Positions 713 to 46,222 of a stretch of DNA of 64,000 nt are shown piece after piece; the stretch's first letter is position 1; the number at the start of each line of letters is the position of its first letter. This DNA comes from Cryomorphaceae bacterium (GTDB lineage: Bacteria > Bacteroidota > Bacteroidia > Flavobacteriales > ECT2AJA-044). The stretch spans positions 1,054,001-1,118,000 of the forward strand of contig CP059070.1 in the NCBI GenBank assembly GCA_017798125.1, in the 5' to 3' direction. The position numbers were made by a program, and so were the translations under genes. The notes under the pieces are model-generated. The model did no database searches, was not told the DNA's origin, and was given only the letters and a program-made list of their open reading frames with translations.

Positions 713-1462
713 ATGGGCCTGAAAGAACAAATTAACCCTGAACGCATACCGCAGCATGTTGCCGTCATTATGGACGGGAACGGACGCTGGGCACGCAAAA
801 AAGGGATGATGCGTGTCTTTGGCCATCAGAACGGGGTTAAGGCCGTGCGCGATACGGTAGAAGCCTGTGCGGAGTTGAACGTTAAGGCCCTGACGCTTTA
901 CGCCTTCAGCACAGAGAATTGGAACCGACCTAAAAGTGAGGTGGATGCCTTGATGAGCTTGCTGATCTCGACCTTGAGAAAGGAGCTCCACACCCTCACG
1001 GAAAACAATATTCGCCTTCGCGCCATTGGCGACTTGGACGCTTTGCCGCCCGACGGCCGCCGAGAGCTTCAGGAAGTCATGGACAAAACAGCCATGAACG
1101 GGCATATGGACTTGGTTCTGGCCTTGAGCTACAGTGCGCGTTGGGAAATGATAGAGGCAGCCAAGAAGATGGCCGAAGCTGTGGCCAAAGGTGATTTGAT
1201 GCCGGATGAGATTGATGAGTCCTGTATTTCGAACCACTTGAGTACGGCGGGCATTCCCGATCCGGAGCTCCTGATTCGGACCAGTGGGGAAACGCGGATC
1301 AGCAACTTCTTGCTTTGGCAGATTGCCTACACGGAACTGTACTTCACCCCAACCCTGTGGCCGGATTTTCGCCGCGAGGATTTGTACATGGCCATCTTAG
1401 ATTTTCAAAAACGCGAGCGCCGCTTCGGTAAAACGAGCGAGCAAATTCAAGAACGACTGTGA
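713..1462 (+). CDS. uppS: Isoprenyl (di-trans,poly-cis-undecaprenyl) diphosphate synthase
   Basis: This cytosolic cis-prenyltransferase adds isopentenyl units to farnesyl diphosphate to make the C55 lipid carrier for peptidoglycan and glycan synthesis. The 249-residue length fits the family. The diagnostic MDGNGRWA motif is at residues 20-27, with the catalytic Asp at 21, followed by FGHQNG near 36, STENWNRP near 70 and the late RTSGETRISNFL block that binds the homoallylic substrate. The stop codon overlaps the GTG start of bamA by four bases (GTGA), which suggests translational coupling within the DUF6089-uppS-bamA-ompH operon. Confidence 0.96.
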   Translation: MGLKEQINPERIPQHVAVIMDGNGRWARKKGMMRVFGHQNGVKAVRDTVEACAELNVKALTLYAFSTENWNRPKSEVDALMSLLISTLRKELHTLTENNIRLRAIGDLDALPPDGRRELQEVMDKTAMNGHMDLVLALSYSARWEMIEAAKKMAEAVAKGDLMPDEIDESCISNHLSTAGIPDPELLIRTSGETRISNFLLWQIAYTELYFTPTLWPDFRREDLYMAILDFQKRERRFGKTSEQIQERL

Positions 1463-3942
1463 AGGGATTGTGGAGTAAGGTACTGTTGTTGATTGGCTTG
1501 ACGTTGTTCACGCATCGCGCCGTTGAGGCGCAAACGGGCGTGGAATACGCTACCCCAAGAAATTATGAAATCGGCGGTATTGAGCTGGCCGGAAGTGAAA
1601 ACCTCGACAAAAATGTGGTGGTCCTTTTGAGTGGACTGCAGGTTGGGGATCGCATTGATATTCCGGGCACCAAGATCACCAAGGCGATTGAGAAGCTCTG
1701 GGATCAGAAGCTCTTCGACGAGATTGCCATTTCCATCAAAGAACGTATTGGGGATGACGTGGTCATCCTGGAGATTTACCTCAAAGAATTGCCGCGGCTC
1801 TCGAAGTTCTCCTTTACGGGAGTGAAGAAGTCGCGCATTGATGACTTGCGGGACCTCATTCAGCTGAACCGTGGGAAAGTGGTCAATGACAACTTGATTG
1901 TCAGCACCAAGAACCGCTTGGAGAACTACTACATCGAGAAGGGATATTTGAACGCGAATATCCAGATTGATTCGAAGCCCGATCCGAATGAAGCCAATGG
2001 AATGATCTTGGACATTGCCATTGACAAAGGGTCACGGGTAAAGATTGAAGAGATCATATTCCACGGTAACGAGCAGGTCGAGTCCGTCAAACTGCGCCGG
2101 ACCATGAAGGACACGAAGCAGATGGGAATTGCCCGTATTTTCAAGTCTTCGAAGTATCTGGAAGACGAGTACCGCGATGACTTGCAGAAGATTGTGGGTT
2201 ACTACAACACGCTGGGGTATCGCGATGCCTACGTGGTCAAAGATTCGCTCTACAAGTACACAGACGCCACCGTCCGTTTGGAGATCTGGATCGATGAGGG
2301 AAGTCAGTACTACTTCCGAAACATCTCTTGGCTCGGAAACACCAAGTACACGAATGCGGAGCTTTCCAAGGTTCTCGATGTTGAAAAGGGAGACGTCTAC
2401 GACCAAGGTCGTTTGGACGGACGTCTTTACGGTTCGGTTGACGGGAACGACGTGACGTCCATGTACATGGATCAAGGACACCTGTTCTTTGATATCCGCC
2501 CGGTCGAAATCTATGCGGAGAACGATTCCATCGATATTGAAATGCGGATTCGCGAAGGGCAGCCTGCGCGCATCAACCGAGTTTACGTCACCGGAAATAC
2601 GCGGACCAATGACCACGTGATCATGCGGGAGATCCGCACTAAGCCGGGTCAGTTGTTCAGTCGTACGGATGTGATGCGGACTACGCGAGAGCTGGCCAAC
2701 TTAGGATACTTTGATCCGGAGCAGATTGTGCCGACACCGAAGCCTGATCCCGAGACGGGGATGGTGGACATCGAGTACAACGTAGTAGAGCGTTCAACCA
2801 GCCAAATTGAGCTTCAAGGAGGATGGGGTGCCGGACGGGTTGTGGGAACCTTTGGGGTGACCTTCGACAACTTCAGCACCAAGCAGATGTTTGCCGAGAA
2901 CGGATGGAATCCGCTTCCCCAAGGAGACGGCCAGCGCATCAGCCTACGGGCACAGTCCAACGGACGATTCTTCCAGTCCTACAACGCCAGCTTTACTGAG
3001 CCTTGGTTGGGAGGAAAGAAACCGAACTCCCTTACGGTGAGCTTCTACCATTCCGTACAAAACCCAACAGGGCGTCCCAAGGATGACCCCCTTCGTCAAG
3101 AGCTTTCAATCACGGGTGTCGGTATTGGAATTGGCCGTCGTTTGAAGTGGCCAGATGACTACTTCACCCTTTACACAGGGGTGAACCTCCAGCGCTACAA
3201 CCTTTTCAATTACCAGAACTTATTTGCCCTGGGCTATACCGATGGCCAGTCCTACAACTTGAACCTGAAGATCATTTTAGGTCGCAGCTCTGTGGATCAG
3301 CCGATCTACCCACGTCGCGGATCCAACTTCGCCATTACCGCCCAGATTACTCCGCCATTCTCGCTCTTGATCGACGAAGATTGGGGCACGGTGGAGCCAG
3401 AGGTGAAGTACAAATTCATCGAGTACCACAAGTGGAAAATCGATGCGTCTTGGTACACCCGAATCATTGGCGACCTCGTCTTTAAAACCCAGGTCCAATT
3501 TGGATTCTTGGGACAGTACAACCGCGAATGGGGATACTCTCCATTTGAGCGCTTCTACGTCGGAGGAGACGGACTACAGGGATTCGTCTTGGATGGTCGT
3601 GAAGTGATTGGTTTGCGCGGTTATCCGAACAACTCCGTATCGCCGATTGGCGGCGGGGTGATCTACGACAAGTTCACCGCGGAACTTCGCTATCCACTAA
3701 CCCTGAACCCCAACTCCACCATTTATGGCCTGCTGTTTGCAGAAGGAGGTAATGCATGGGGGGACTTCCGCCAGTTCAAACCTTTCGACATCAAACGCGC
3801 GATGGGTTTTGGTGTGCGGATCTTCATGCCGATGTTCGGTATGCTTGGGGTTGACTTCGGATACGGATACGACCCACTCGGCGGACCGTTCGGCATTCCT
3901 TCCGGATGGCAGACACACTTTATTTTAGGACAACAATTCTAA
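1459..3942 (+). CDS. bamA: Outer membrane protein assembly factor BamA (Omp85)
   Basis: BamA inserts beta-barrel proteins into the outer membrane. The 827-residue product starts with a signal peptide ending near VEAQ (residues 1-25). Repeated POTRA-type segments follow, such as GIELAGSENLDKNVV, FTGVKKSRIDDL, IIFHGNEQVESVKLR and VYVTGNTRTNDHVIMRE. The C-terminal 16-strand barrel begins around residue 455 and contains a loop-6 type VIGLRGYPNNS block near 715. The GTG start overlaps the uppS stop, and the upstream frame gives no better start. Two Skp/OmpH-like chaperones follow directly, which is the typical BamA neighbourhood in this phylum. Confidence 0.96.
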   Translation: MKGLWSKVLLLIGLTLFTHRAVEAQTGVEYATPRNYEIGGIELAGSENLDKNVVVLLSGLQVGDRIDIPGTKITKAIEKLWDQKLFDEIAISIKERIGDDVVILEIYLKELPRLSKFSFTGVKKSRIDDLRDLIQLNRGKVVNDNLIVSTKNRLENYYIEKGYLNANIQIDSKPDPNEANGMILDIAIDKGSRVKIEEIIFHGNEQVESVKLRRTMKDTKQMGIARIFKSSKYLEDEYRDDLQKIVGYYNTLGYRDAYVVKDSLYKYTDATVRLEIWIDEGSQYYFRNISWLGNTKYTNAELSKVLDVEKGDVYDQGRLDGRLYGSVDGNDVTSMYMDQGHLFFDIRPVEIYAENDSIDIEMRIREGQPARINRVYVTGNTRTNDHVIMREIRTKPGQLFSRTDVMRTTRELANLGYFDPEQIVPTPKPDPETGMVDIEYNVVERSTSQIELQGGWGAGRVVGTFGVTFDNFSTKQMFAENGWNPLPQGDGQRISLRAQSNGRFFQSYNASFTEPWLGGKKPNSLTVSFYHSVQNPTGRPKDDPLRQELSITGVGIGIGRRLKWPDDYFTLYTGVNLQRYNLFNYQNLFALGYTDGQSYNLNLKIILGRSSVDQPIYPRRGSNFAITAQITPPFSLLIDEDWGTVEPEVKYKFIEYHKWKIDASWYTRIIGDLVFKTQVQFGFLGQYNREWGYSPFERFYVGGDGLQGFVLDGREVIGLRGYPNNSVSPIGGGVIYDKFTAELRYPLTLNPNSTIYGLLFAEGGNAWGDFRQFKPFDIKRAMGFGVRIFMPMFGMLGVDFGYGYDPLGGPFGIPSGWQTHFILGQQF

Positions 3943-35872: not shown

Positions 35873-38800
35873 GTGGCATTGCGTCATAGTACACAGAGCC
35901 TGCGATGGCTATTTTTGTTGTTAACGGTTGCGGTTTTTCTGCCTACGGCAGGATGGGCCCAGACCGACACGTCGGATACCGGCGGTTCTGAGCAGGGCGA
36001 TCTGATACTGGATGAGCCTGGGAACGTCACGGAATCCGTTCAATACGACCCCGTATCCAATCAGTACGTCATCCAGCGGATGATGGGTGATTTCCCACTC
36101 GGCCCTCCACAGTTCCTGTCTCCCACAGAATACCAAGACTACGTTTTCAGTCAACAGAACGATGACTACTGGGACAACAAATCCGGTCAAGGCGGCAATA
36201 GCGGTCTGGGGAGCGGTCTTGAAGAAGCCGGGGGACTTCTTCCCCAATTCCAGGTCGGTGGTGAAGATTTCGATCGACTCTTTGGCGGTAACACCGTAGA
36301 TATCCGACCCCGTGGGTCGGCTTCTTTGATTTTCGGGGCCATGATTAACCGCACGGATAACCCCGCCCTTCCTGAACGAAATCGCCGTACGGCTAGCTTC
36401 AACTTTGACGAGCGCATTCAGATGAACGTCACCGGTTCCATCGGAGATAAACTGCGCATCACAACGAACTACGATACCGAAGCTACCTTCAGCTTCGAAA
36501 ATCAAATGAAACTCGAGTACACGGGGGATGAAGATGAAATCATCCAGCGACTCGAAGTGGGAAATGTTGGTTTGCCCTTGAACTCCACGCTCATTACTGG
36601 GGCCCAAAGCCTCTTCGGGGTTAAGGCGCAAGCTCGATTCGGAAAAGCCACCGTAACTACTGTATTTTCCGAACAGAAGAGTGAAACCAGCACTATTGAT
36701 GTGGAGGGCGGTGCTCGTACCCAGGAATTCGAGATTCGGGTCGATGAGTACGAGGCCAACCGACACTTCTTCTTGAGCCAGTACTTCTATGAGAACTACG
36801 ATCAGTGGCTCGAGCAGCTTCCCGTCATCACGTCGGGAATTGAAATCACCAAGATTGAGGTCTGGGTCACGAACAGAACCAACATTACCGATGATACCCG
36901 AAACATTGTCGGTTTCATGGACCTCGGTGAGCGGAACATCAACAACCCGGTCATCGCGTACAATGGCGGAACCTTCCCGGATAACGCCATCAACACCCTG
37001 AATCCAGAGGACTTCGCCAACCCGCAAACACGGGACATCAACCAGGTCAACGATTACTTGAATGCCTTCGGATTCCGCGAGCAAATCGACTACGCTGAAC
37101 TGGAAACGGCCCGCCGACTCCGTTCAAACGAATACACCTTCCATCCGAACCTCGGTTACATCTCTTTGAATCAGAGTCTGAACGCCGATGAGGTCCTTGG
37201 GGTAGCCTTCCAATACACCCTGAACGGTCAAACCTATCAGGTAGGGGAATTCTCCAACGACGGTATCGATGCTCCTCAGACTTTGATGGTGAAGTTGCTG
37301 AAGAGTGTCATCGTTGCGGTGAATCAGCCGATGTGGGATTTGATGATGAAGAACGTCTATAACATCGGTGCGTTCCAAGTCAACCCACAAGATTTCCGAT
37401 TGGATGTATTGTACGCCAATGATGAGACGGGACAACCGATGAACTTCATTCCAGAAGGCGAACTTTCCAACGAGATTCTTCTTCGCGTTTTGAACGTCGA
37501 TAAACTCAACAACAACAACGACCCTTTCCCCGATGGGGTGTATGACTTTGTGCCAGGACTCACCATTATTCCCAGCAACGGGCGAATCATGTTCCCCGTG
37601 GCCGAGCCGTTTGGAGACCACCTCAGGAGTCAATTTGAAGCTGTAGGAGACGGGGCACTGGCGGATGATTACGTTTACGATCAGCTTTACGACAGTACCA
37701 AGTTCGTGGCCCAGCAGGACGCTGTGCACAACAAATTCCTATTCCGAGGTAGTTATCGATCGAGCAGTAGTAGTGAGATACCGCTGAACGCCATGAACGT
37801 CCCTCAGGGTTCCGTGACTGTAACCGCCGGTGGACAGCAACTTGTGGAGAACGTTCACTACACCGTAGATTACAACCTCGGTCGAGTAAAAATCATCGAC
37901 GAAGGATTGTTGAATTCAGGAACGCCTATTCAAATCTCGCTCGAAAACAACTCGCTCTTTAACTTCCAGGCGAAGCGATTCATGGGGGCCCATGTCGACT
38001 ACGAGTTTAGCGACGACCTCATGCTCGGGGGTACCATTCTCAACCTTGGGGAACGTCCCTTGACCCAAAAGGTCAATATGGGAGATGAGCCCATCAACAA
38101 TACGATTTGGGGTTTAAATGGAAACTACTCTACGGAGTCTCGCTTCCTGACACGTATGGTGGACGCCCTTCCCGGTATCAGCACCAAGGCTAAATCGACC
38201 ATTAACGTAACGGGTGAATTTGCCCAGCTGATCCCCGGTTCTCCTCGAGGGATTAAGATCGATGGGGACGGTACCAGCTACATTGATGACTTCGAGAACA
38301 GCCAAACGACTATTGATATTCGGACCGTTACCCAATGGCAGATTGCCTCAACCCCACAGGGGCAACCCGAACTTTGGCCTGAAGCTGAACTCAGCGACGA
38401 TGTCGCCTATGGTCTAAACCGAGCCAAGCTTGCTTGGTACGTGGTTGACCCACTTTTCCACCGAAACAATACGCTTACTCCAGATCACATCCGCAACGAC
38501 CCCGACCAGCAGAGTAACCACTTTGTCCGTGAAGTCCTGATTACGGAGCTCTTTCCAGCGAAGGATATCCCGAACGGTCAACCAACCAACATGGCCGTGA
38601 TGAACATGGCCTTCTATCCGGATGAGCGCGGACCGTACAACTTCGATGTGGAGCCGACAGCTTTTTCAGCTGGTTTGAATGCAGATGGATCGCTGGCTCA
38701 GCCTCAAACGCGATGGGGAGGTATTATGCGCGCCATTACCCAGTCGAACTTCGAAACGGCCAATGTCGAATTCATCCAGATGTGGATTTTGGATCCCTTT

Positions 38801-41800
38801 GTTTACGATCCGGACGGAGAAGGGGGAGACCTGTACATTCACTTAGGAAATATCTCTGAAGACATTCTTCGCGATAACCGAAAGTCCTTTGAGAATGGTT
38901 TGCCAGAAGGGACGGATTTAATCGATGTCGATTCTACGGCTTGGGGACATGTGCCGACCAATCAATCTATTGTCAATGCCTTTGCCAATGATCCCGATGC
39001 TCGTGCTCGTCAGGATATCGGATTGGATGGATTGAACAACACCTTGGAAGCCAGCTGGCCGTACAACAATGTAGACGGCGCACCGACCTATTTGGACTTG
39101 ATCGCAGCCGCTTACGGAACTAACTCTGGCGCTTACCAACAAGCCTTGCAAGATCCGGGTAATGATGACTACCATTACTACCGTGGATCGGATTACGATG
39201 ACGCGGAAGTCAGCATCTTGGACCGCTACAAGCTGTACAACAATACACAAGGGAACTCTCCTGTTGGAACCAGTATTGAGCCCTATCCAACCGCCGCCAC
39301 AACACTGCCTGATGTCGAAGACATCAACCAAGACCAGACCCTAAGTAAAACTGAGGCGTATTACCAGTACCGAATCAGTATCCGTCCGGAAGACATGGTG
39401 GTCGGAGAGAACTACATTACCGATGCAGTAACGGCTTCGGTTAAGCTTCAGAACGGACAGGTTGATGAGGTGACTTGGTATCAGCTTAAAGTGCCCATTT
39501 TTGAGCCAGATCGCGTTGTTGGAAACATCTTTGATTTCCGAAGCATTCGATTCATGCGAATGGTGTATACAGGGTTCCAAGATTCCTTGATCATGCGTTT
39601 TGCTCGTCTTGAGTTTGTGCGAAGTGATTGGAGACGTTATCAAGACAACTTGGCTGTACCCGGAGAAAATCTAGATGACGATTCGGACGACGACACCAAC
39701 TTCGATTTGACGGCGGTTAACCTCGAAGAAAATGGTCAGCGTACGCCGATTCCCTATGTGATTCCTCCTGGAATTGATCGTCAGGTCCTTTTCGGTACCA
39801 CCAACCTACAGGCACAGAACGAGCAGTCGATTAGTCTCCGGGCATGTGAGTTGGAAGACGGGGATGCCCGAGCAGCCTTCAAGAACATCAACATGGATAT
39901 GCGGAACTACAACCGCATCAAGATGTTTGTCCACGCGGAAGACGCGCGTGACGGTGATGATCTCCAGGACGGCGATATGACGGCCTTCATGCGAATCGGA
40001 TCCGATTTTACTCAGAACTACTATGAATATGAGATTCCGGTAACCGTTACACCTTGGGGAACTTCAGATCCGGATTTGATTTGGCCAGAAGAGAACGAAT
40101 TCGACTTCAGTTTTGATGAAATCACACAGGCTAAATTGGCCCGGAACAACGCCATGCAGGGCAATCCGGATGTGAATTTGACGACTCCATTTACGGTCAT
40201 CAATGCCAAGGGTCACCGAATTACTGTTGTGGGTAACCCGAGTTTGGGGAATGCCCGTACCATCATGCTCGGTATGCGGAATCCGAAAAAACTGGGGCCA
40301 AGTGATCCGGATGACGGCATGAGCAAATGTGCCGAATTCTGGTTCAATGAGTTGCGTCTAACGGACTTTGACCAACGTGGAGGATACGCAGCAACCCTTC
40401 GTGCCGTTGCCAAGCTGGCGGATTTCGGTACGGTGAGCCTTTCGGGTAACTACAGCACCATTGGATTTGGAGGCATCGACAAGGCCGTCCAAGACCGAAA
40501 CAAGGAAGAAATTCTGGAGTACAACTTCCAGTCGAATTTGAACTTGGGTCAATTCTTTGGAAACTCGGGTATTCGCATTCCGATGTACTTCGGGTATGGA
40601 GAGCGAATTGCCAATCCAATGTTTAACGAATTGGATACAGACATCGAAACGTCAGAAGCATATGACGCATTAGATACCCGTCAGGAAAGAGATTCCCTCA
40701 AGAACATCATTCAGGATTACACGCGACGGACAAGCGTTAACTTCACCAATGTCCGCAAGGAACGAACCGGTGGAGGTGGTCGACCACAGCCGCAGGCTGG
40801 GCCGGGTGTTCCAAGAGGTCCCGGAGCGCCAACGCAGCAGGCTCCGAAAAAGGAAATGCCTTGGGATATCGAGAACTTCTCAGTGACCTATTCCTATAAC
40901 GAGACGTACCACCGAGATGTAAACACGGAGTACTCGGTCATGAAGAATACCCAAGGGCAGCTGGCGTATAACTTCAATACCCGACCGGAGAACGTTCGAC
41001 CTTTCCGAAACGTCAACTTCCTTCGAAGCTCTAAATGGTTGCGCCTGTTCAGCGAAGCGAACTTCTACTATCTACCTAGCCGATTTGCCTTCCAGACCAA
41101 CATTCGACGTGATTACGCGGAGACGAAGCTGAGAAACAACAGCGATGCGATTCTACTGATTGAGCCAAACTACAACAAGGCCTTTACAATGGATCGGATC
41201 TACGACTTGAAGTACGATCTGACCAAGAACATCAAGATTGACTATACGGCCACCTCGAATAACCGGATTGACGAACCAGAAGGGGCCATAGACGACAGTG
41301 CGCGTGATACCATTTGGTCGAATTTCTGGAGCGGGGGACGTTCAACGCGCTTCCACCAGACCTTGAACTTCAATTGGAATCTACCTGTGAACTTGATTCC
41401 GATTCTTGACTGGACTAATGCGACCTACCGCTACACCAGTAACTACGACTGGACTACGGCCTCACAGACGCGTTTGAGTTTTGGGAATACCATTCAGAAC
41501 AGCAACACCCAACAGTACAACCTACAGTTCAACTTCACACAGCTCTACAACAAGGTCGGATTCTTGCGCAATGCCAATCAGCGCCAGAACAACACGCGAA
41601 GAATGCCTACGCGTCGACAACAAGAGCCGGGCGCAGGTGATGAAGAAGAGGAAGAAAAAGAGAAGAGCGGCGAGTTTGGCAAAGGCGTTCTGCGATTCTT
41701 GATGATGGTGAAGAACGGTAACATCAGCTACACGGAAAACAATGGAACGCTTTTGCCGGGTTACTTGCCGGGCGTATCGTTCTTCGGACTCACCTCATAC

Positions 41801-43048
41801 AATGGCAGTATGGCACCTTCTCTTGGGTTTGTCTTTGGATCTCAAGCGGATATTCGCCCTGAGGCCGCACTCAATGGCTGGATCACAACAGATACCCTGC
41901 AGAATCAGCGTTATGCCCAAACGGTGGCTCAAAACTTGAACCTGCGTTTGAATTTAGAGCCTATACGCGACTTCCGAATTGAATTGACTGGTAACCGCAC
42001 CTATGCGGAGAACTTCGAGTCTTTCTTCCGCTATGATCCAGATACTGATGACTTCGTGGATTTGAACCCGATGTATCGCGGAAACCTGAGCATTAGTTTC
42101 TTGAGTTGGTCTACAGCCTTTGAGAAGGTCAGCTTTAGTGACGGAACGTTCCAGTCTGACGCGTACGATCAGTTTCTAGAAAACCGATTTGTCATCGCCG
42201 AGCGACTAGCCCTGGACCGAGACGGGATAGTAGTCATTGACGATTCTACTGGATTCCCCGTCGGTTATGGTCCAACCCAACAGGATGTATTGATTCCCGC
42301 GTTCTTGGCAGCTTACCAAGGCCGTGATGCTTCATCCTACAACACAGCCACTATCCGAAATACGCCGCTCCCGAACTGGCGAATTACGTACGACGGATTG
42401 ATGAAGATTCCGTGGGTTCGCGAGACCTTCCGAACGGTGACCTTGAGCCATGCTTATCGCTCCAGCTATACGGTGGGGAGCTTCCAAACAGACTTACGGG
42501 TTCAGGACGATCCAGATGGAATTGACCCTGGTGGAAACTATTATGCCGAGTACCAGATTCAGACGGTGGCCATTCGCGAATCATTCTCCCCATTGGCTAA
42601 GATTGACGTTACCCTGAACAACAGTTTGACCTCACGGGTCGAAATGCGCCGCGACCGAAGCATGACCATGAGCTTTGCAAACAACCAGATTACTGAAGTC
42701 GCGGGAAGGGAGTACATTTTTGGACTTGGATATCGCTTCCGAGATGTTCCGTTCCGTGTAAAAAGCGGTGGACGGACACGTCGAATTGTATCGGACTTGA
42801 ATGTTCAGGCGGACGTTTCGATTCGACAGAACAGAACCATCATTCGACGAATTGTTGAAGGAACCACCTTGCCTACCGGTGGTCAGAGTTTGGTGAAGAT
42901 TCAAGTCTCCGCCGATTACGTAATTTCTCGACGCTTTAACGTTCGACTCTTCTTCGATCGTGTGATGACCAATTACGTGGTATCCACAGCCTTCCCAACG
43001 GCGAATACCAACTTCGGAATCGAGATGCGATTCACTCTAGGTCAGTGA
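35873..43048 (+). CDS. sprA: T9SS outer-membrane translocon SprA (Sov)
   Basis: SprA is the giant 36-strand barrel through which T9SS cargo crosses the outer membrane. The 2391-residue product is in the usual size range. It starts at GTG 35873 with a signal peptide ending GWAQ (residue 30). Typical features are VDIRPRGSASLIFGA, long strand-rich regions, a Pro/Gly/Gln-rich insertion near residues 1635-1660 (PQPQAGPGVPRGPGAP), a charged insertion near 1917-1935 and a terminal strand FGIEMRFTLGQ. The order ruvA-sprA-gcvH-vanZ-like is common in Bacteroidota. The gene is intact. Confidence 0.97.
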   Translation: MALRHSTQSLRWLFLLLTVAVFLPTAGWAQTDTSDTGGSEQGDLILDEPGNVTESVQYDPVSNQYVIQRMMGDFPLGPPQFLSPTEYQDYVFSQQNDDYWDNKSGQGGNSGLGSGLEEAGGLLPQFQVGGEDFDRLFGGNTVDIRPRGSASLIFGAMINRTDNPALPERNRRTASFNFDERIQMNVTGSIGDKLRITTNYDTEATFSFENQMKLEYTGDEDEIIQRLEVGNVGLPLNSTLITGAQSLFGVKAQARFGKATVTTVFSEQKSETSTIDVEGGARTQEFEIRVDEYEANRHFFLSQYFYENYDQWLEQLPVITSGIEITKIEVWVTNRTNITDDTRNIVGFMDLGERNINNPVIAYNGGTFPDNAINTLNPEDFANPQTRDINQVNDYLNAFGFREQIDYAELETARRLRSNEYTFHPNLGYISLNQSLNADEVLGVAFQYTLNGQTYQVGEFSNDGIDAPQTLMVKLLKSVIVAVNQPMWDLMMKNVYNIGAFQVNPQDFRLDVLYANDETGQPMNFIPEGELSNEILLRVLNVDKLNNNNDPFPDGVYDFVPGLTIIPSNGRIMFPVAEPFGDHLRSQFEAVGDGALADDYVYDQLYDSTKFVAQQDAVHNKFLFRGSYRSSSSSEIPLNAMNVPQGSVTVTAGGQQLVENVHYTVDYNLGRVKIIDEGLLNSGTPIQISLENNSLFNFQAKRFMGAHVDYEFSDDLMLGGTILNLGERPLTQKVNMGDEPINNTIWGLNGNYSTESRFLTRMVDALPGISTKAKSTINVTGEFAQLIPGSPRGIKIDGDGTSYIDDFENSQTTIDIRTVTQWQIASTPQGQPELWPEAELSDDVAYGLNRAKLAWYVVDPLFHRNNTLTPDHIRNDPDQQSNHFVREVLITELFPAKDIPNGQPTNMAVMNMAFYPDERGPYNFDVEPTAFSAGLNADGSLAQPQTRWGGIMRAITQSNFETANVEFIQMWILDPFVYDPDGEGGDLYIHLGNISEDILRDNRKSFENGLPEGTDLIDVDSTAWGHVPTNQSIVNAFANDPDARARQDIGLDGLNNTLEASWPYNNVDGAPTYLDLIAAAYGTNSGAYQQALQDPGNDDYHYYRGSDYDDAEVSILDRYKLYNNTQGNSPVGTSIEPYPTAATTLPDVEDINQDQTLSKTEAYYQYRISIRPEDMVVGENYITDAVTASVKLQNGQVDEVTWYQLKVPIFEPDRVVGNIFDFRSIRFMRMVYTGFQDSLIMRFARLEFVRSDWRRYQDNLAVPGENLDDDSDDDTNFDLTAVNLEENGQRTPIPYVIPPGIDRQVLFGTTNLQAQNEQSISLRACELEDGDARAAFKNINMDMRNYNRIKMFVHAEDARDGDDLQDGDMTAFMRIGSDFTQNYYEYEIPVTVTPWGTSDPDLIWPEENEFDFSFDEITQAKLARNNAMQGNPDVNLTTPFTVINAKGHRITVVGNPSLGNARTIMLGMRNPKKLGPSDPDDGMSKCAEFWFNELRLTDFDQRGGYAATLRAVAKLADFGTVSLSGNYSTIGFGGIDKAVQDRNKEEILEYNFQSNLNLGQFFGNSGIRIPMYFGYGERIANPMFNELDTDIETSEAYDALDTRQERDSLKNIIQDYTRRTSVNFTNVRKERTGGGGRPQPQAGPGVPRGPGAPTQQAPKKEMPWDIENFSVTYSYNETYHRDVNTEYSVMKNTQGQLAYNFNTRPENVRPFRNVNFLRSSKWLRLFSEANFYYLPSRFAFQTNIRRDYAETKLRNNSDAILLIEPNYNKAFTMDRIYDLKYDLTKNIKIDYTATSNNRIDEPEGAIDDSARDTIWSNFWSGGRSTRFHQTLNFNWNLPVNLIPILDWTNATYRYTSNYDWTTASQTRLSFGNTIQNSNTQQYNLQFNFTQLYNKVGFLRNANQRQNNTRRMPTRRQQEPGAGDEEEEEKEKSGEFGKGVLRFLMMVKNGNISYTENNGTLLPGYLPGVSFFGLTSYNGSMAPSLGFVFGSQADIRPEAALNGWITTDTLQNQRYAQTVAQNLNLRLNLEPIRDFRIELTGNRTYAENFESFFRYDPDTDDFVDLNPMYRGNLSISFLSWSTAFEKVSFSDGTFQSDAYDQFLENRFVIAERLALDRDGIVVIDDSTGFPVGYGPTQQDVLIPAFLAAYQGRDASSYNTATIRNTPLPNWRITYDGLMKIPWVRETFRTVTLSHAYRSSYTVGSFQTDLRVQDDPDGIDPGGNYYAEYQIQTVAIRESFSPLAKIDVTLNNSLTSRVEMRRDRSMTMSFANNQITEVAGREYIFGLGYRFRDVPFRVKSGGRTRRIVSDLNVQADVSIRQNRTIIRRIVEGTTLPTGGQSLVKIQVSADYVISRRFNVRLFFDRVMTNYVVSTAFPTANTNFGIEMRFTLGQ

Positions 43049-43090
43049 TAGAACTTTCTCTATTTTAGGGCCTCAATAAAGCACTACCAA

Positions 43091-43471
43091 ATGAATATCC
43101 CAGAGGATTTAAAGTACACCAAAGACCACGAGTGGATCCGCAAAGAAGGAGATCTCTACGTCGTGGGTATTACTGATTTTGCCCAAGGCGAATTGGGGGA
43201 CATCGTTTACGTTGAAGTGGAAACGGAAGGCGATGAATTGGACGGAGAAGAAGTCTTTGGATCTGTCGAAGCCGTGAAAACCGTATCTGATCTATTCATG
43301 CCCATGGCGGGAGAAGTGGTTGAATTCAACGCTGCACTTGAGGATGATCCAGAAAAAGTCAATGACGACCCCTATGGAGAGGGTTGGATGATCAAGATCA
43401 AGGCGAGCAATGACGGCGATTACGACAGCCTGTTGGATGCAGCCGGATACAAAGAAGTCATCGGTGCTTAA
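43091..43471 (+). CDS. gcvH: Glycine cleavage system H protein
   Basis: The H protein shuttles the methylamine group on a lipoyl arm between the P and T proteins. The 126-residue product has the expected KYTKDHEWI opening, [13 protein letters not shown], and the lipoylation site Lys63 in ESVEAVK-type context ([12 protein letters not shown]). It follows sprA by 42 bases and overlaps the VanZ-like gene at its 3' end. P and T protein genes are not in the window. Confidence 0.95.
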
Positions 43472-43844
43472 TACGGCCCTGCTCCGGCGATTCGTACCCT
43501 CCATACTTTGGATGTGCGTGATCTTGCTCACTAGTTTGACGCCCGGAGGAGATATGCCAAGGGTCCAGTTCTCCGATAAGTTTGCCCACGCATTTGTCTA
43601 TTTTGTCTTGACCATTCTGCTGGCCCGCGCTTGGCTCAAACAAGATCACAAGGTAGTTTGGCGCAATAGAGCGTTCCTTCTCGCGTTTATTGTGAGCATG
43701 GTTTTTGGGATAATGTTGGAGCTCTTTCAGCATTATTTCATCGAAGGCCGGAAAGGAGAAGTCCTAGATGTGGTGGCCAATATGGCGGGCTCGCTCTTCG
43801 CTTTTCCCATGCACCGCTTACTCAAAGGAGGAAGCTTTACTTAA
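43464..43844 (+). CDS. VanZ-like membrane protein
   Basis: The 126-residue protein has four membrane helices and the VanZ-type pattern [19 protein letters not shown] followed by [34 protein letters not shown] choose GTG 43464, which overlaps the gcvH stop; an earlier ATG at 43410 lies deep inside gcvH. VanZ-like proteins of this small type have no proven role, although the family is named after a teicoplanin resistance factor. Position behind gcvH is conserved in many Bacteroidota. Confidence 0.82.
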
Positions 43845-43910: not shown

Positions 43911-44615
43911 ATGCAACAGAAGAAAAATCCACAAGCTGATCTAGAACGCTCACGTTCGATCTTTACGCTCGTAGGGTTGATCATCGCCCTTGGGGTCGTG
44001 ATCTTCGCTTTCGAGTGGAAAACGTACGAGCGCGAGTTGATGGATCTCGGATCTCTCGATATGGAGATCGATGAAGAAATGGTTCCTGTGACCATCCGTC
44101 AAAAGAAACCACCACCCCCTCCACCTCCTCCCCCCGAAGTGATTCAAGTCGTTGAAGACGATATTGAAATTGAGGATGAAATCGAGATTCAAGATCAAGA
44201 CTTCGATGAGGAAGAGATCATTGAAATTATTGAAGAGCCGGAAGAGGAAGTACTGGAGCCCATGAACTTCATGGTTGTAGAAAACAAGCCGGTCTTCCCG
44301 GGCTGTGAGCACCTCAAGGATTCACAAGAGCAGTATATGTGCTTTAATCAAAAGATTGCCGAGCACATCCGCACCGTCTTCAAATACCCTCCTATTGCCA
44401 AGGATATGGGTATTCAAGGAAAGGTGTACGTCACCTTCGTTATCGATCAACAAGGAGCCATTACAGATGCAACTGTTGCTCGTAGTGTGGATAAGCACCT
44501 CGATGCGGAAGCGGTACGAATTGTGGAGACTTTACCAAAAATGACTCCAGCCAAGCAGCGTGGAAAGTCCGTACCGGTTGCCTTTACGGTACCGATTAAC
44601 TTTAAGCTGCAGTAA
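43911..44615 (+). CDS. TonB energy transducer, first of three tandem paralogs
   Basis: TonB links proton motive force to outer-membrane receptors. The 234-residue protein has a short basic N-terminus, one membrane helix (residues about 19-40), a Pro-rich run (PPPPPPPPEVIQVVED near 65-80), an acidic Glu/Asp/Ile spacer (about 80-115) and a TonB C-terminal domain (VYVTFVIDQQGAITDATVARS to the end). A conserved pair of Cys sits in FPGCEHLKDSQEQYMCF. The next two genes share this domain and Cys pair, so the cluster arose by duplication. Confidence 0.9.
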   Translation: MQQKKNPQADLERSRSIFTLVGLIIALGVVIFAFEWKTYERELMDLGSLDMEIDEEMVPVTIRQKKPPPPPPPPPEVIQVVEDDIEIEDEIEIQDQDFDEEEIIEIIEEPEEEVLEPMNFMVVENKPVFPGCEHLKDSQEQYMCFNQKIAEHIRTVFKYPPIAKDMGIQGKVYVTFVIDQQGAITDATVARSVDKHLDAEAVRIVETLPKMTPAKQRGKSVPVAFTVPINFKLQ

Positions 44616-44641
44616 AAGACTTGCTTCATAAAGAATAGAAG

Positions 44642-44672
44642 AGCCCTCGGAATTTTCCGGGGGCTTTTTTTT
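44642..44672 (+). terminator. Terminator after the first tonB gene
   Basis: AGCCCTCGG (44642-44650) pairs with CCGGGGGCT (44657-44665) with one G-T pair, followed by eight T. Confidence 0.9.
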
Positions 44673-44689
44673 GGGCATCATATTTGGAG

Positions 44690-44728
44690 CAGTTTAGATA
44701 ACCACCCGGTTTAATCTCTCTTAAACTG
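44690..44728 (+). repeat. Inverted repeat before the second tonB gene
   Basis: CAGTTTA (44690-44696) and TAAACTG (44722-44728) are perfect 7-bp arms 25 bases apart, flanked by GAG and GCTC. The second arm ends 7 bases before the ATG at 44736. It could be an operator or an mRNA structure; no T-tract follows. Confidence 0.4.
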
Positions 44729-44735
44729 TTGCTCT

Positions 44736-45464
44736 ATGGAAGTCAAAAAGTCGCCCAAGGCGGATCTCGAACGCCACAAATTTGTGTTCCGGCTCATTGG
44801 ATTGAGCATTGCCTTAGTCCTGATGATTACCGTTTTTCAGCTCAAGTCCTTTTCCGATTTACCCACCCAGGATATTGTCGAACGGGTGAACCCGGATACG
44901 GAGGTTCTGCCGCCCGTGGTTTATCGAAGTGAAAAAGCGGTCCCCGAGAAAAAGAAAACGGTAGAACCCAAGAAGTTGGAGCCTAACAAGCCCGCGAAAA
45001 GACCCAAGAAGCTGGTCGCGGTCAACAAGACGATTCAAATACCTGATAAACCTTGGGAAGAGGTGCCTGAAATCATACCTGGTCAGAGCAAACACGAAGT
45101 GCTCGAGGCCATTCCCTTTATTTCGGTGGAAGAACTCCCCGTCTTTCCGGGATGCGAAGGACTGCGCGGAGAAGATCGCGAAAGATGCTTTGTAGAAATG
45201 ATGTGGAATCACATCCAGGACAATTTTCACTATCCTGAGATTTCAAGAGAAATGAGAACGGAAGGCAAGGTCTTTGTCTCCTTTGTCATAGACGCTGAAG
45301 GAAAAGTTACACAAGTAGAGGCGGTTCGAGGACCGGATAAACACCTGAAAGCGGAAGGTGAAAGACTTCTAAATTCCATGCCTGTCATGGTTTCTCCTGC
45401 CAAGCAGAGGGGGAAGCCGGTGCCGGTTTCTTATGCGGTCCCCATAAATTTTCAGCTACAATAA
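44736..45464 (+). CDS. TonB energy transducer, second tandem paralog
   Basis: The 242-residue protein keeps the basic N-terminus (KKSPKADLERHKFVFRLIG), a membrane helix near residues 24-42, a Lys/Pro-rich spacer (PEKKKTVEPKKLEPNKPAK, about 70-90) and the TonB C-terminal domain (FVSFVIDAEGKVTQVEAVRG to the end). The pair FPGCEGLRGEDRERCF matches the first paralog. Its spacer is basic while that of the first copy is acidic, so the two probably serve different partners. It has its own terminator. Confidence 0.9.
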   Translation: MEVKKSPKADLERHKFVFRLIGLSIALVLMITVFQLKSFSDLPTQDIVERVNPDTEVLPPVVYRSEKAVPEKKKTVEPKKLEPNKPAKRPKKLVAVNKTIQIPDKPWEEVPEIIPGQSKHEVLEAIPFISVEELPVFPGCEGLRGEDRERCFVEMMWNHIQDNFHYPEISREMRTEGKVFVSFVIDAEGKVTQVEAVRGPDKHLKAEGERLLNSMPVMVSPAKQRGKPVPVSYAVPINFQLQ

Positions 45465-45488
45465 AGAATTTCCGCAATTAGGCGCTAG

Positions 45489-45518
45489 AGCCCTCGGTCT
45501 ACTCCGAGGGCTTTTTTT
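45489..45518 (+). terminator. Terminator after the second tonB gene
   Basis: AGCCCTCGG (45489-45497) pairs perfectly with CCGAGGGCT (45504-45512) around TCTACT, followed by seven T. The left arm is identical to that of the previous terminator, which suggests it was duplicated with the gene. Confidence 0.9.
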
Positions 45519-45547
45519 ATCTTGCTTTGAACTAAAACCCAAACGAT

Positions 45548-46222
45548 ATGAAGAAGATAACCATGATCGCAGCGGCATGCTTGGCATTCGGCATGTACAG
45601 CTGTATGAGTGACCCAGCATCCAGTTCAGACGCTGAAGGAACGGACAGCACACAAACGATGGAGGATAGCACGGCTGAAGGTTCAGATGAGGGCGCTATG
45701 GAAATGGACTCTGCCTCGGCTCATGAGACCGAAGAAGCGGCGGATGTAGATCAGCGCTCCGCGGAGATTCACCATGAAGTATCTGCTGAAGTAAAAGACG
45801 CCCATATGATGGAGGGCCAGGAAATCGAAGATGAAGACGAAATCGTCATCACCATGGCCATGGCCGATCAAAAACCTGCTATGCCAGGTTGCGAAGAAAT
45901 CGTAGAGCCTGCGGATCAGCGCGCTTGTTTTGACGAGCAATTGGCCGCGCACATCCAAGATGAGTTCACCTACCCGGAGCGCGATCTACAGCAACGCACC
46001 ATGCTCGAGAATAACCGCGAGCGCGGAGTGGTTGAAGTTTATTTTGAAATCAACGAATTGGGCTTAATCGAGCGCGCCAAGGTCGTTCGCAGTGTGAACG
46101 ATGAGTTGGATGCAGAAGCTCTTCGCGTGATTGAGAGCTTGCCTCCGATGGAGCCAGCTCGTGCAAATGGTCGGGCTGTTCAGGTACGCTACGTCGTGCC
46201 GATCAGCGTGAACTTGAATTAA
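45548..46222 (+). CDS. Lipoprotein with TonB C-terminal domain, third tandem paralog
   Basis: The 224-residue protein shares the TonB C-terminal domain (VVEVYFEINELGLIERAKVVRS to the end) and the Cys pair (MPGCEEIVEPADQRACF) of its two neighbours. The N-terminus is a lipoprotein-type signal (GMYSC, probable lipid Cys19) followed by an Asp/Glu/Ser/Thr-rich linker of about 80 residues, with no membrane helix and no Pro-rich spacer. It therefore cannot be driven by ExbBD in the usual way. Its role may be that of a competitor or adaptor, which is speculation. deoC starts 7 bases later. Confidence 0.8.
   Translation: MKKITMIAAACLAFGMYSCMSDPASSSDAEGTDSTQTMEDSTAEGSDEGAMEMDSASAHETEEAADVDQRSAEIHHEVSAEVKDAHMMEGQEIEDEDEIVITMAMADQKPAMPGCEEIVEPADQRACFDEQLAAHIQDEFTYPERDLQQRTMLENNRERGVVEVYFEINELGLIERAKVVRSVNDELDAEALRVIESLPPMEPARANGRAVQVRYVVPISVNLN

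Follow-up and report, generated by a model that had tools for sequence, protein, structure and literature searches.

The third of three tandem TonB-domain genes in a Cryomorphaceae bacterium (Flavobacteriales) encodes a predicted lipoprotein that keeps the receptor-binding tip of TonB and lacks the parts by which TonB is coupled to its motor. The genes lie at positions 43,911 to 46,222 of a 64,000-nucleotide stretch of contig CP059070.1 (positions 1,054,001 to 1,118,000; hereafter the window), itself part of a single 2.84-Mb contig, and we call their products TonB1 (P1), TonB2 (P2) and P3. As a tentative explanation, which we place somewhat short of an even chance, P3 would be an uncoupled TonB C-terminal domain (CTD) that is tethered to the outer membrane, faces the periplasm and occupies Ton-boxes or TonB, tuning access to the transporters. 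An earlier note on this DNA had described three tandem TonB CTD genes that share a PGCE...CF cysteine pair, and both points held: the coordinates of the open reading frames (ORFs) are exact, Pfam TonB_C was found in each product above the curated cut-off (E-values 4.3e-21, 2.9e-15 and 4.9e-12 for P1, P2 and P3), and the cysteine pair is present in all three. The features of the trio, all on the + strand, are as follows.

43911..44615: TonB1 (P1), 234 amino acids (aa); transmembrane (TM) helix at about residues 16-34, D-box-like segment, poly-Pro/acidic linker, TonB_C
44082-44102: D-box-like VPVTIRQ of P1, residues 58-64 (motif search)
44736..45464: TonB2 (P2), 242 aa; TM helix at about residues 16-34, D-box-like segment, charge-balanced KP-rich linker, TonB_C
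44907-44927: D-box-like LPPVVYR of P2, residues 58-64 (motif search)
45548..46222: P3, 224 aa, predicted lipoprotein with TonB CTD (ORF, Pfam, AlphaFold, lipobox statistics)
45548..45601: signal peptide of P3, residues 1-18 (MKKITMIAAACLAFGMYS; sequence, hydropathy, lipobox statistics)
45602..45604: Cys19 of P3, predicted lipidated residue (+1; lipobox-like statistics)
45605..45874: acidic low-complexity linker of P3, residues 20-109 (composition; pLDDT about 48-60)
45875..46219: TonB CTD of P3, residues 110-224, with Cys115/Cys127, YP motif and a 7-residue insertion (Pfam, alignment, structure)

P3 has a lipoprotein-type signal in place of the membrane anchor

Judged by their sequences, P1 and P2 are inner-membrane TonBs of the usual kind: both begin with KK(N/S)PxADLE, followed by a strong helix. 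P3 begins instead with MKKITMIAAACLAFGMYSC. The maximal 19-residue N-terminal hydropathy is 2.72 for P1 and 2.47 for P2, and with a value of 1.37 a TM helix is absent from P3; nor does one lie upstream of the ATG, because the open frame comprises just 228 codons and closes 4 codons upstream of that ATG. What P3 does have is the layout of a signal peptidase II substrate, with a positively charged n-region (MKK), a hydrophobic h-region (mean 2.23) and a Cys at lipobox-like spacing with Ser at -1, and lipidation of Cys19 is predicted on this basis. When we tabulated 64 comparable N-termini from the sampled loci and the window, P3 among them, position -1 was S, A or G in 59. The earlier note had proposed a lipoprotein signal without a membrane helix and had named a normal membrane anchor as what would speak against it; we looked for such an anchor and found none. 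Residues +2 to +6 of P3 (MSDPA) contain one acidic residue and lack the acidic cluster of surface lipoproteins, for which the excerpt of PMC5080379 gives the export signals QKDDE, SDDDD and SDDFE; since MSDPA is unlike these, P3 is predicted to face the periplasm.

The segment that would face ExbD is missing as well. In Escherichia coli the D-box binds ExbD by strand recruitment, as described in the excerpt of PMC10907165, with which as a guide we set the form of the motif for this phylum by eye. Using a D-box-like regular expression that was chosen after seeing the sequences, we found the strand in 48 of 52 distinct TM TonBs from the same loci (mean of 200 shuffles 24.2, highest 34), and in neither P3 nor the 7 other distinct non-TM forms. 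This count is without L157 (cut N-terminus) and L141 (a two-domain protein); a first, stricter expression gave 20/41 for TM proteins and 0/25 for the others, the latter group then including wrongly sorted TM proteins. With the ExbB-facing helix and the ExbD-facing D-box-like strand both lacking, ExbBD would have no grip on P3, which supports the suggestion of the earlier note that this protein stands outside the normal ExbBD mechanism. The 90-residue linker that follows holds 28 D+E, 3 K+R and 1 Pro, whereas the spacer of P1 holds 12 Pro, 5 K+R and 31 D+E, and that of P2 14 Pro, 16 K+R and 17 D+E (net -1). Of the spacer types assigned earlier, Pro-rich and acidic for P1 and acidic for P3 therefore stand; the supposedly basic spacer of P2 is balanced in charge, its basic stretch being local.

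The TonB tip of P3 is intact

In the AlphaFold model of P3, the predicted local distance difference test (pLDDT) score exceeds 90 across most of residues 111-221, with low confidence outside the CTD. In a comparison with solved structures, TonB CTDs come closest, among them CTDs bound to FoxA (Z 9.1, 2.0 Å, 88 aligned), TbpA (Z 8.3, 2.9 Å, 85 aligned), BtuB (Z 6.7, 2.4 Å, 80 aligned) and FhuA; TolA domain III is also among the structural neighbours (Z 8.8, 3.3 Å, 97 aligned). All invariant columns of our TonB CTD alignment (A1), YP included, are kept in P3, and its model has a C-terminal edge strand (E213-221). Over the CTD, P3 is 39-42% identical to P1, P2 and the TonB1 and bare CTD of a congener (see below), and 32% identical to the TonB2 of that congener. 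Its 115-residue CTD carries a net charge of -10, against +3 for P1 and -1 for P2. At E<=0.1, Pfam returned TonB_C alone for P3, and no OmpA-type peptidoglycan-binding domain. Compared with the TonB energy transducer (PF03544 / TIGR01352), P3 is thus alike in CTD sequence, predicted fold, long periplasmic linker and gene neighbours, and differs in lacking the inner-membrane helix and the D-box-like ExbD segment and in having a lipid signal.

Both cysteines of the CTD occur in 238 of 240 distinct readable domains, one domain having a single Cys and another neither (73 more were unreadable), in a count whose profile was itself built from Cys-pair proteins. This near-perfect co-occurrence suggests a disulfide. 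As a mark special to the trio we rejected the pair, since it is family-wide.

Bare and lipidated TonB domains recur in relatives

We compared the trio with the one other genome of the same family in our set, that of a congener (G001), where the order is sprA-gcvH-vanZ-TonB1, a 139-aa Sec-secreted bare CTD, and TonB2. P1 and P2 have orthologues there (TonB1 and TonB2, with 87% and 57% CTD identity). The earlier note had proposed to search for the same trio in relatives, and as a conserved unit it had to be given up, the middle gene of the congener encoding the secreted bare CTD and no P3 being found at the corresponding place. The signal of this non-TM protein ends in MAQ, fitting the Q-rule for cleavage of Sec-secreted proteins (excerpt of PMC5837995). 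P3 and the bare CTD may be one gene that changed both place and anchor. A clade of the two was unrejected (p-AU 0.896), the tree that held them together having the higher likelihood, and both genes begin right after a terminator, with AGCCCTCG as its arm in the congener. The placement of P3 received FastTree support of 0.22-0.65 and was left open by IQ-TREE 'quick'; since all three tests in which groups were held together ended unrejected, the tree is weak evidence either way. Before the tree was built, L050, L058 and L059, which the script had called short, were reassigned as TM TonBs whose start had been set wrongly, and received new names.

Beyond this pair, we inspected 41 stretches (L016 and 40 chosen by hand across families, mostly around matches of the P3 search). 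A gcvH-like gene adjoins tonB in 28 of them, often together with sprA (35873-43844 in the window); the sprA-gcvH-vanZ-tonB setting is widespread. As an observation in its own right, this links tonB to a translocon gene of the type IX secretion system (sprA) across families of the order. In genus g61, which belongs to another family, the arrangement TonB, bare secreted CTD, TonB appears in 5/6 stretches (L148, L149, L151, L152 and L153; not L150), and in L147 a 157-aa secreted CTD precedes TonB. Un-energised TonB CTDs, soluble or lipidated, therefore recur in relatives, and non-TM members are recurrent in TonB arrays; across the window and the 41 stretches, a lipidated one at the third place occurs in the window only. 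The Sec-secreted bare proteins (L016, L147, L148, L149, L151, L152, L153), for which we found no published name, resemble P3 in having a CTD with the Cys pair, lacking a TM helix and adjoining TM TonBs; unlike P3, they have neither a lipobox nor a long acidic linker, and in the trios they sit between two TonBs. Like P3, they vary the TonB theme without introducing a new fold.

Among the matches listed for 395 genomes of the order (E<=1e-6) and 395 of the class (E<=1e-12), no full-length relative of P3 was recognised. Nearly all listed matches start within the linker or CTD of P3; one in G390 (C1 492024, E 1.3e-16, 471-aa frame) spans residues 3-223, and one in G031 starts at residue 21. L122 was dropped as a lipoprotein candidate, its lipoprotein look depending on a TTG start. 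Matches also turned up on plasmid records (8 of 72,556, all in Bacteroidales genera). Stretch L224, from a different family of the class, encodes a tandem pair of bare secreted TonB_C-type proteins (148 and 152 aa; about 926-1860, reverse strand).

A separate lipoprotein family carries a degenerate TonB domain

A scan of named genomes yielded a second kind of lipid-anchored TonB-type domain, typified by the following gene.

L068:6413-6895 (further members L168-L197): lipoprotein with degenerate TonB CTD, 161 aa, lipobox LLTSC (sequence reading)

With L068 as query, 53 of 296 genomes in the order matched at E<=1e-8, namely 49 from family f3 (probably Flavobacteriaceae) and 2 each from f7 and f8. 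The f7 pair and one f8 match, in G282, are probably ordinary TonBs (E 4e-10 to 9e-9, 238-246-aa frames); the other f8 match, in G207, is strong (E 1.3e-37). We read 31 members (L068 and 30 returned loci), in 27 of which the Cys at the signal end is visible, the start set by the script lying too far downstream in the other 4 (L190, L195, L196, L197). Across 21 aligned members, neither the Cys at the lipid site nor the two of the CTD vary, and the YP motif is lost; left out of this alignment were L168 (an X letter), L180 (a near copy of L177), and L183, L188, L190, L192, L193, L195, L196 and L197 (start uncertain or length outside the limits). The family profile matched the TonB alignment with a probability of 99% (E 2.1e-18), and the family model (pLDDT 85.8) has TonB and TolA CTDs as its best solved neighbours, with Z <=7.1 (best: 2.7 Å, 89 aligned). 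Foldseek gave 0 matches for this model at E<=0.001, the profile found none among solved structures by sequence, and Pfam was blind to the one member tested.

The family lies near ruvC/hemW, where we take the names BlaI, M56, ruvC and hemW from the look of the proteins at L068. The ruvC gene lies downstream in 20/21 stretches (L068 and 20 others); a TonB_C gene labelled M56 by similarity to L068 lies upstream in 13/21, and L217 has BlaI and an unlabelled TonB_C gene. These stretches reach about 5 kb each way, and absences from them are no proof. Like P3, the family combines a lipid Cys, a TonB-type CTD, the Cys pair and a PAxKRGxPV end; it differs in having no YP, a short linker, another locus and its own clade in the tree. 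We considered whether P3 itself belongs to it. The L068 query had no match in the P3 genome (G000) at E<=1e-8, and the flanking genes of P3 are TonB2 and a deoC-like one, with no ruvC nearby; membership is thus unsupported by search and locus, although a joint clade went unrejected (p-AU 0.627).

Terminators and gene neighbours

The layout around the trio (+ strand) includes three further elements.

44640..44668: intrinsic terminator after P1, with the AGCCCTCGG arm (genome pattern search, folding)
44704..44728: inverted repeat, imperfect, GGTTTAA...TTAAACTG, immediately before P2; conserved at the equivalent position before TonB2 in the congener
45487..45515: intrinsic terminator after P2, with the same AGCCCTCGG arm (terminator scan, pattern search, folding)

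That nearly identical terminators follow the first two genes had been noticed before, and the genome-wide search bears this out: across the 2.84 Mb of the genome, the hairpin AGCCCTCGG...CCGRGGGCTTT has 2 copies, located exactly behind P1 and behind P2. Their predicted folding energies are each about -20 kcal/mol (z -3.9 for the first, -5.9 for the second); the stock terminator scan detected the second only. The congener carries AGCCCTCGAGTATTCGAGGGC at the position of the post-P1 terminator. The inverted repeat before TonB2 is present as a single genome copy at up to 3 mismatches, and is a possible operator. Upstream of P1 lie a gene that we take to be sprA from its sequence, gcvH (Pfam), and a vanZ-like gene whose Pfam score is below the family cut-off. 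P3 ends 7 bases before the next gene, presumably deoC, and in the interval between the two a terminator scan and folding gave no terminator.

The Ton system of this genome

TonB_C occurs at six places in five proteins of this genome, which are P1, P2, P3 and the following two.

L017:2829-3629 (C1 about 630330-631130): 266-aa exported protein with Sec-type signal, two TonB_C domains and no other part
L019:3730-4122 (C1 about 1937230-1937620): 130-aa TonB_C protein, GTG start, no export signal, seemingly cytoplasmic

The genome further has one ExbB/ExbD/ExbD cluster (ExbB presumably so named), 24 Plug-domain places and two TM TonBs. Besides its two ExbD genes, the ExbB cluster encodes one more membrane protein, and the ExbB-like protein (L018:2871-3728) has an acidic extension at its N-terminus as well as a signal peptide. 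Elsewhere in our set, ORFs of about 700 aa encode exported proteins that have TonB_C at the N-terminus, followed by a long C-terminal part which by eye looks like an outer-membrane barrel (L053:8060-10180, with similar ORFs in L070, L074, L076, L079, L087, L091, L097, L106, L107 and L112); the one tested, the 707-aa L053 protein, had no family match beyond TonB_C.

How P3 may act

We propose that P3 is Sec-exported and that its lipid would be inserted in a leaflet facing the periplasm, the outer membrane being the likeliest site. The intact TonB CTD would hang on a disordered, acidic tether about 90 residues long. The proton motive force would be unable to drive it. By strand addition, its tip may bind the Ton-boxes that TonB-dependent receptors carry, and TonB1/TonB2 may perhaps be partners too; since the tip is intact, it would do so passively from the lipid tether. 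P3 could then park, space or compete for receptors, with TonB1/TonB2 supplying the force, and because two TM TonBs serve 24 receptors, competition for tips is plausible; the earlier note had suggested that such a protein may regulate or scaffold receptors. P3 would in other words be a lipidated variant of a Flavobacteriales theme, in which bare TonB CTDs are exported beside real TonB genes. Several points weigh against this proposal: the congener lacks a P3 orthologue at the corresponding position, and the end branch of P3 in the tree is long (1.32, IQ-TREE 'quick'); its lipobox is atypical (Met at -3 and Tyr at -2 each in 2/64 N-termini, P3 in both counts); the outer-membrane placement presupposes that lipoproteins of this group go to that membrane by default; and the conserved ruvC-linked family has lost the YP motif, so that Ton-box binding need not be a shared role.

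The atypical residues at -3 and -2 would also suit a P3 that is not lipidated and is secreted by Sec as a soluble protein, as its possible clade partner with the MAQ signal in the congener would be by the Q-rule (excerpt of PMC5837995), or one whose lipid stays in the inner membrane. We consider this unlikely, given that the Cys lies at lipobox-like spacing behind Ser and an h-region averaging 2.23, and that no alternative AxA or AQ cleavage site was found by eye. The lack of an orthologue in the congener, the low CTD identity (32-42%) and the long branch could also mark a fast-evolving duplicate without function. An intact frame, the preserved A1-invariant columns, the position behind a terminator and a codon usage within the range of the neighbours (a weak test, in which P3 at 0.036 and its antisense frame at 0.051 were not separated, the latter scoring no worse) make us doubt it.

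Two further alternatives grant P3 its anchor and give it another partner. P3 might tether the outer membrane to peptidoglycan in the manner of Pal, by a TonB/TolA-type domain: TolA domain III resembles its CTD in fold, its predicted outer-membrane lipoprotein layout is that of Pal, TonB CTD dimers are suggested to bind peptidoglycan in the excerpt of PMC9022066, and the database cited in the excerpt of PMC12204202 yielded no pal gene for Bacteroidetes, with other tethers being proposed. The domain of Pal itself is OmpA-type and peptidoglycan-binding (same excerpt), and the net charge of the P3 CTD argues against binding of acidic peptidoglycan; a small chance is what we would leave to this role. 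P3 might also act on TonB, either through a CTD heterodimer with TonB1/TonB2, as TonB CTDs dimerise in some settings (excerpt of PMC9022066), or through electrostatic pairing between its acidic tether and the KP-rich TonB2 linker. Its place in the same array and the counts of 16 K/R in the TonB2 linker and 28 D/E in its own would fit, but the TonB2 linker is balanced overall, and the non-TM members of the congener and the other trios have no acidic tether, which leaves this idea improbable to us.

A passive TonB tip thus remains our preferred, tentative reading of P3. On a wider and clearly more speculative level, which we would not expect to hold as a whole, the un-energised TonB tips of Flavobacteriales (secreted, lipidated, or fused to BlaR1-like M56 proteins) could make up a layer of the Ton system that has no motor role: at the outer membrane, tips on lipid anchors would sense or hold transporter plugs, and the lipoprotein encoded near ruvC would signal this state to the neighbouring M56-TonB_C/BlaI pair, providing transcriptional feedback on TonB-dependent transport. 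Our searches of the open-access literature turned up no paper that describes a lipid-anchored TonB domain. TonB is understood as a motor shaft, and with its motor end removed would be expected to be useless. In P3 that end has seemingly been replaced by a lipid anchor with the tip left intact, and dozens of related genomes keep a further, separate family of lipoproteins that bear a TonB-like tip; the conservation of lipid-anchored tips in relatives suggests that they hold or regulate nutrient gates and do not power them. If such tips bind Ton-boxes, they would add a regulatory layer to the uptake of nutrients in a phylum for which TonB-dependent transport is a mainstay.

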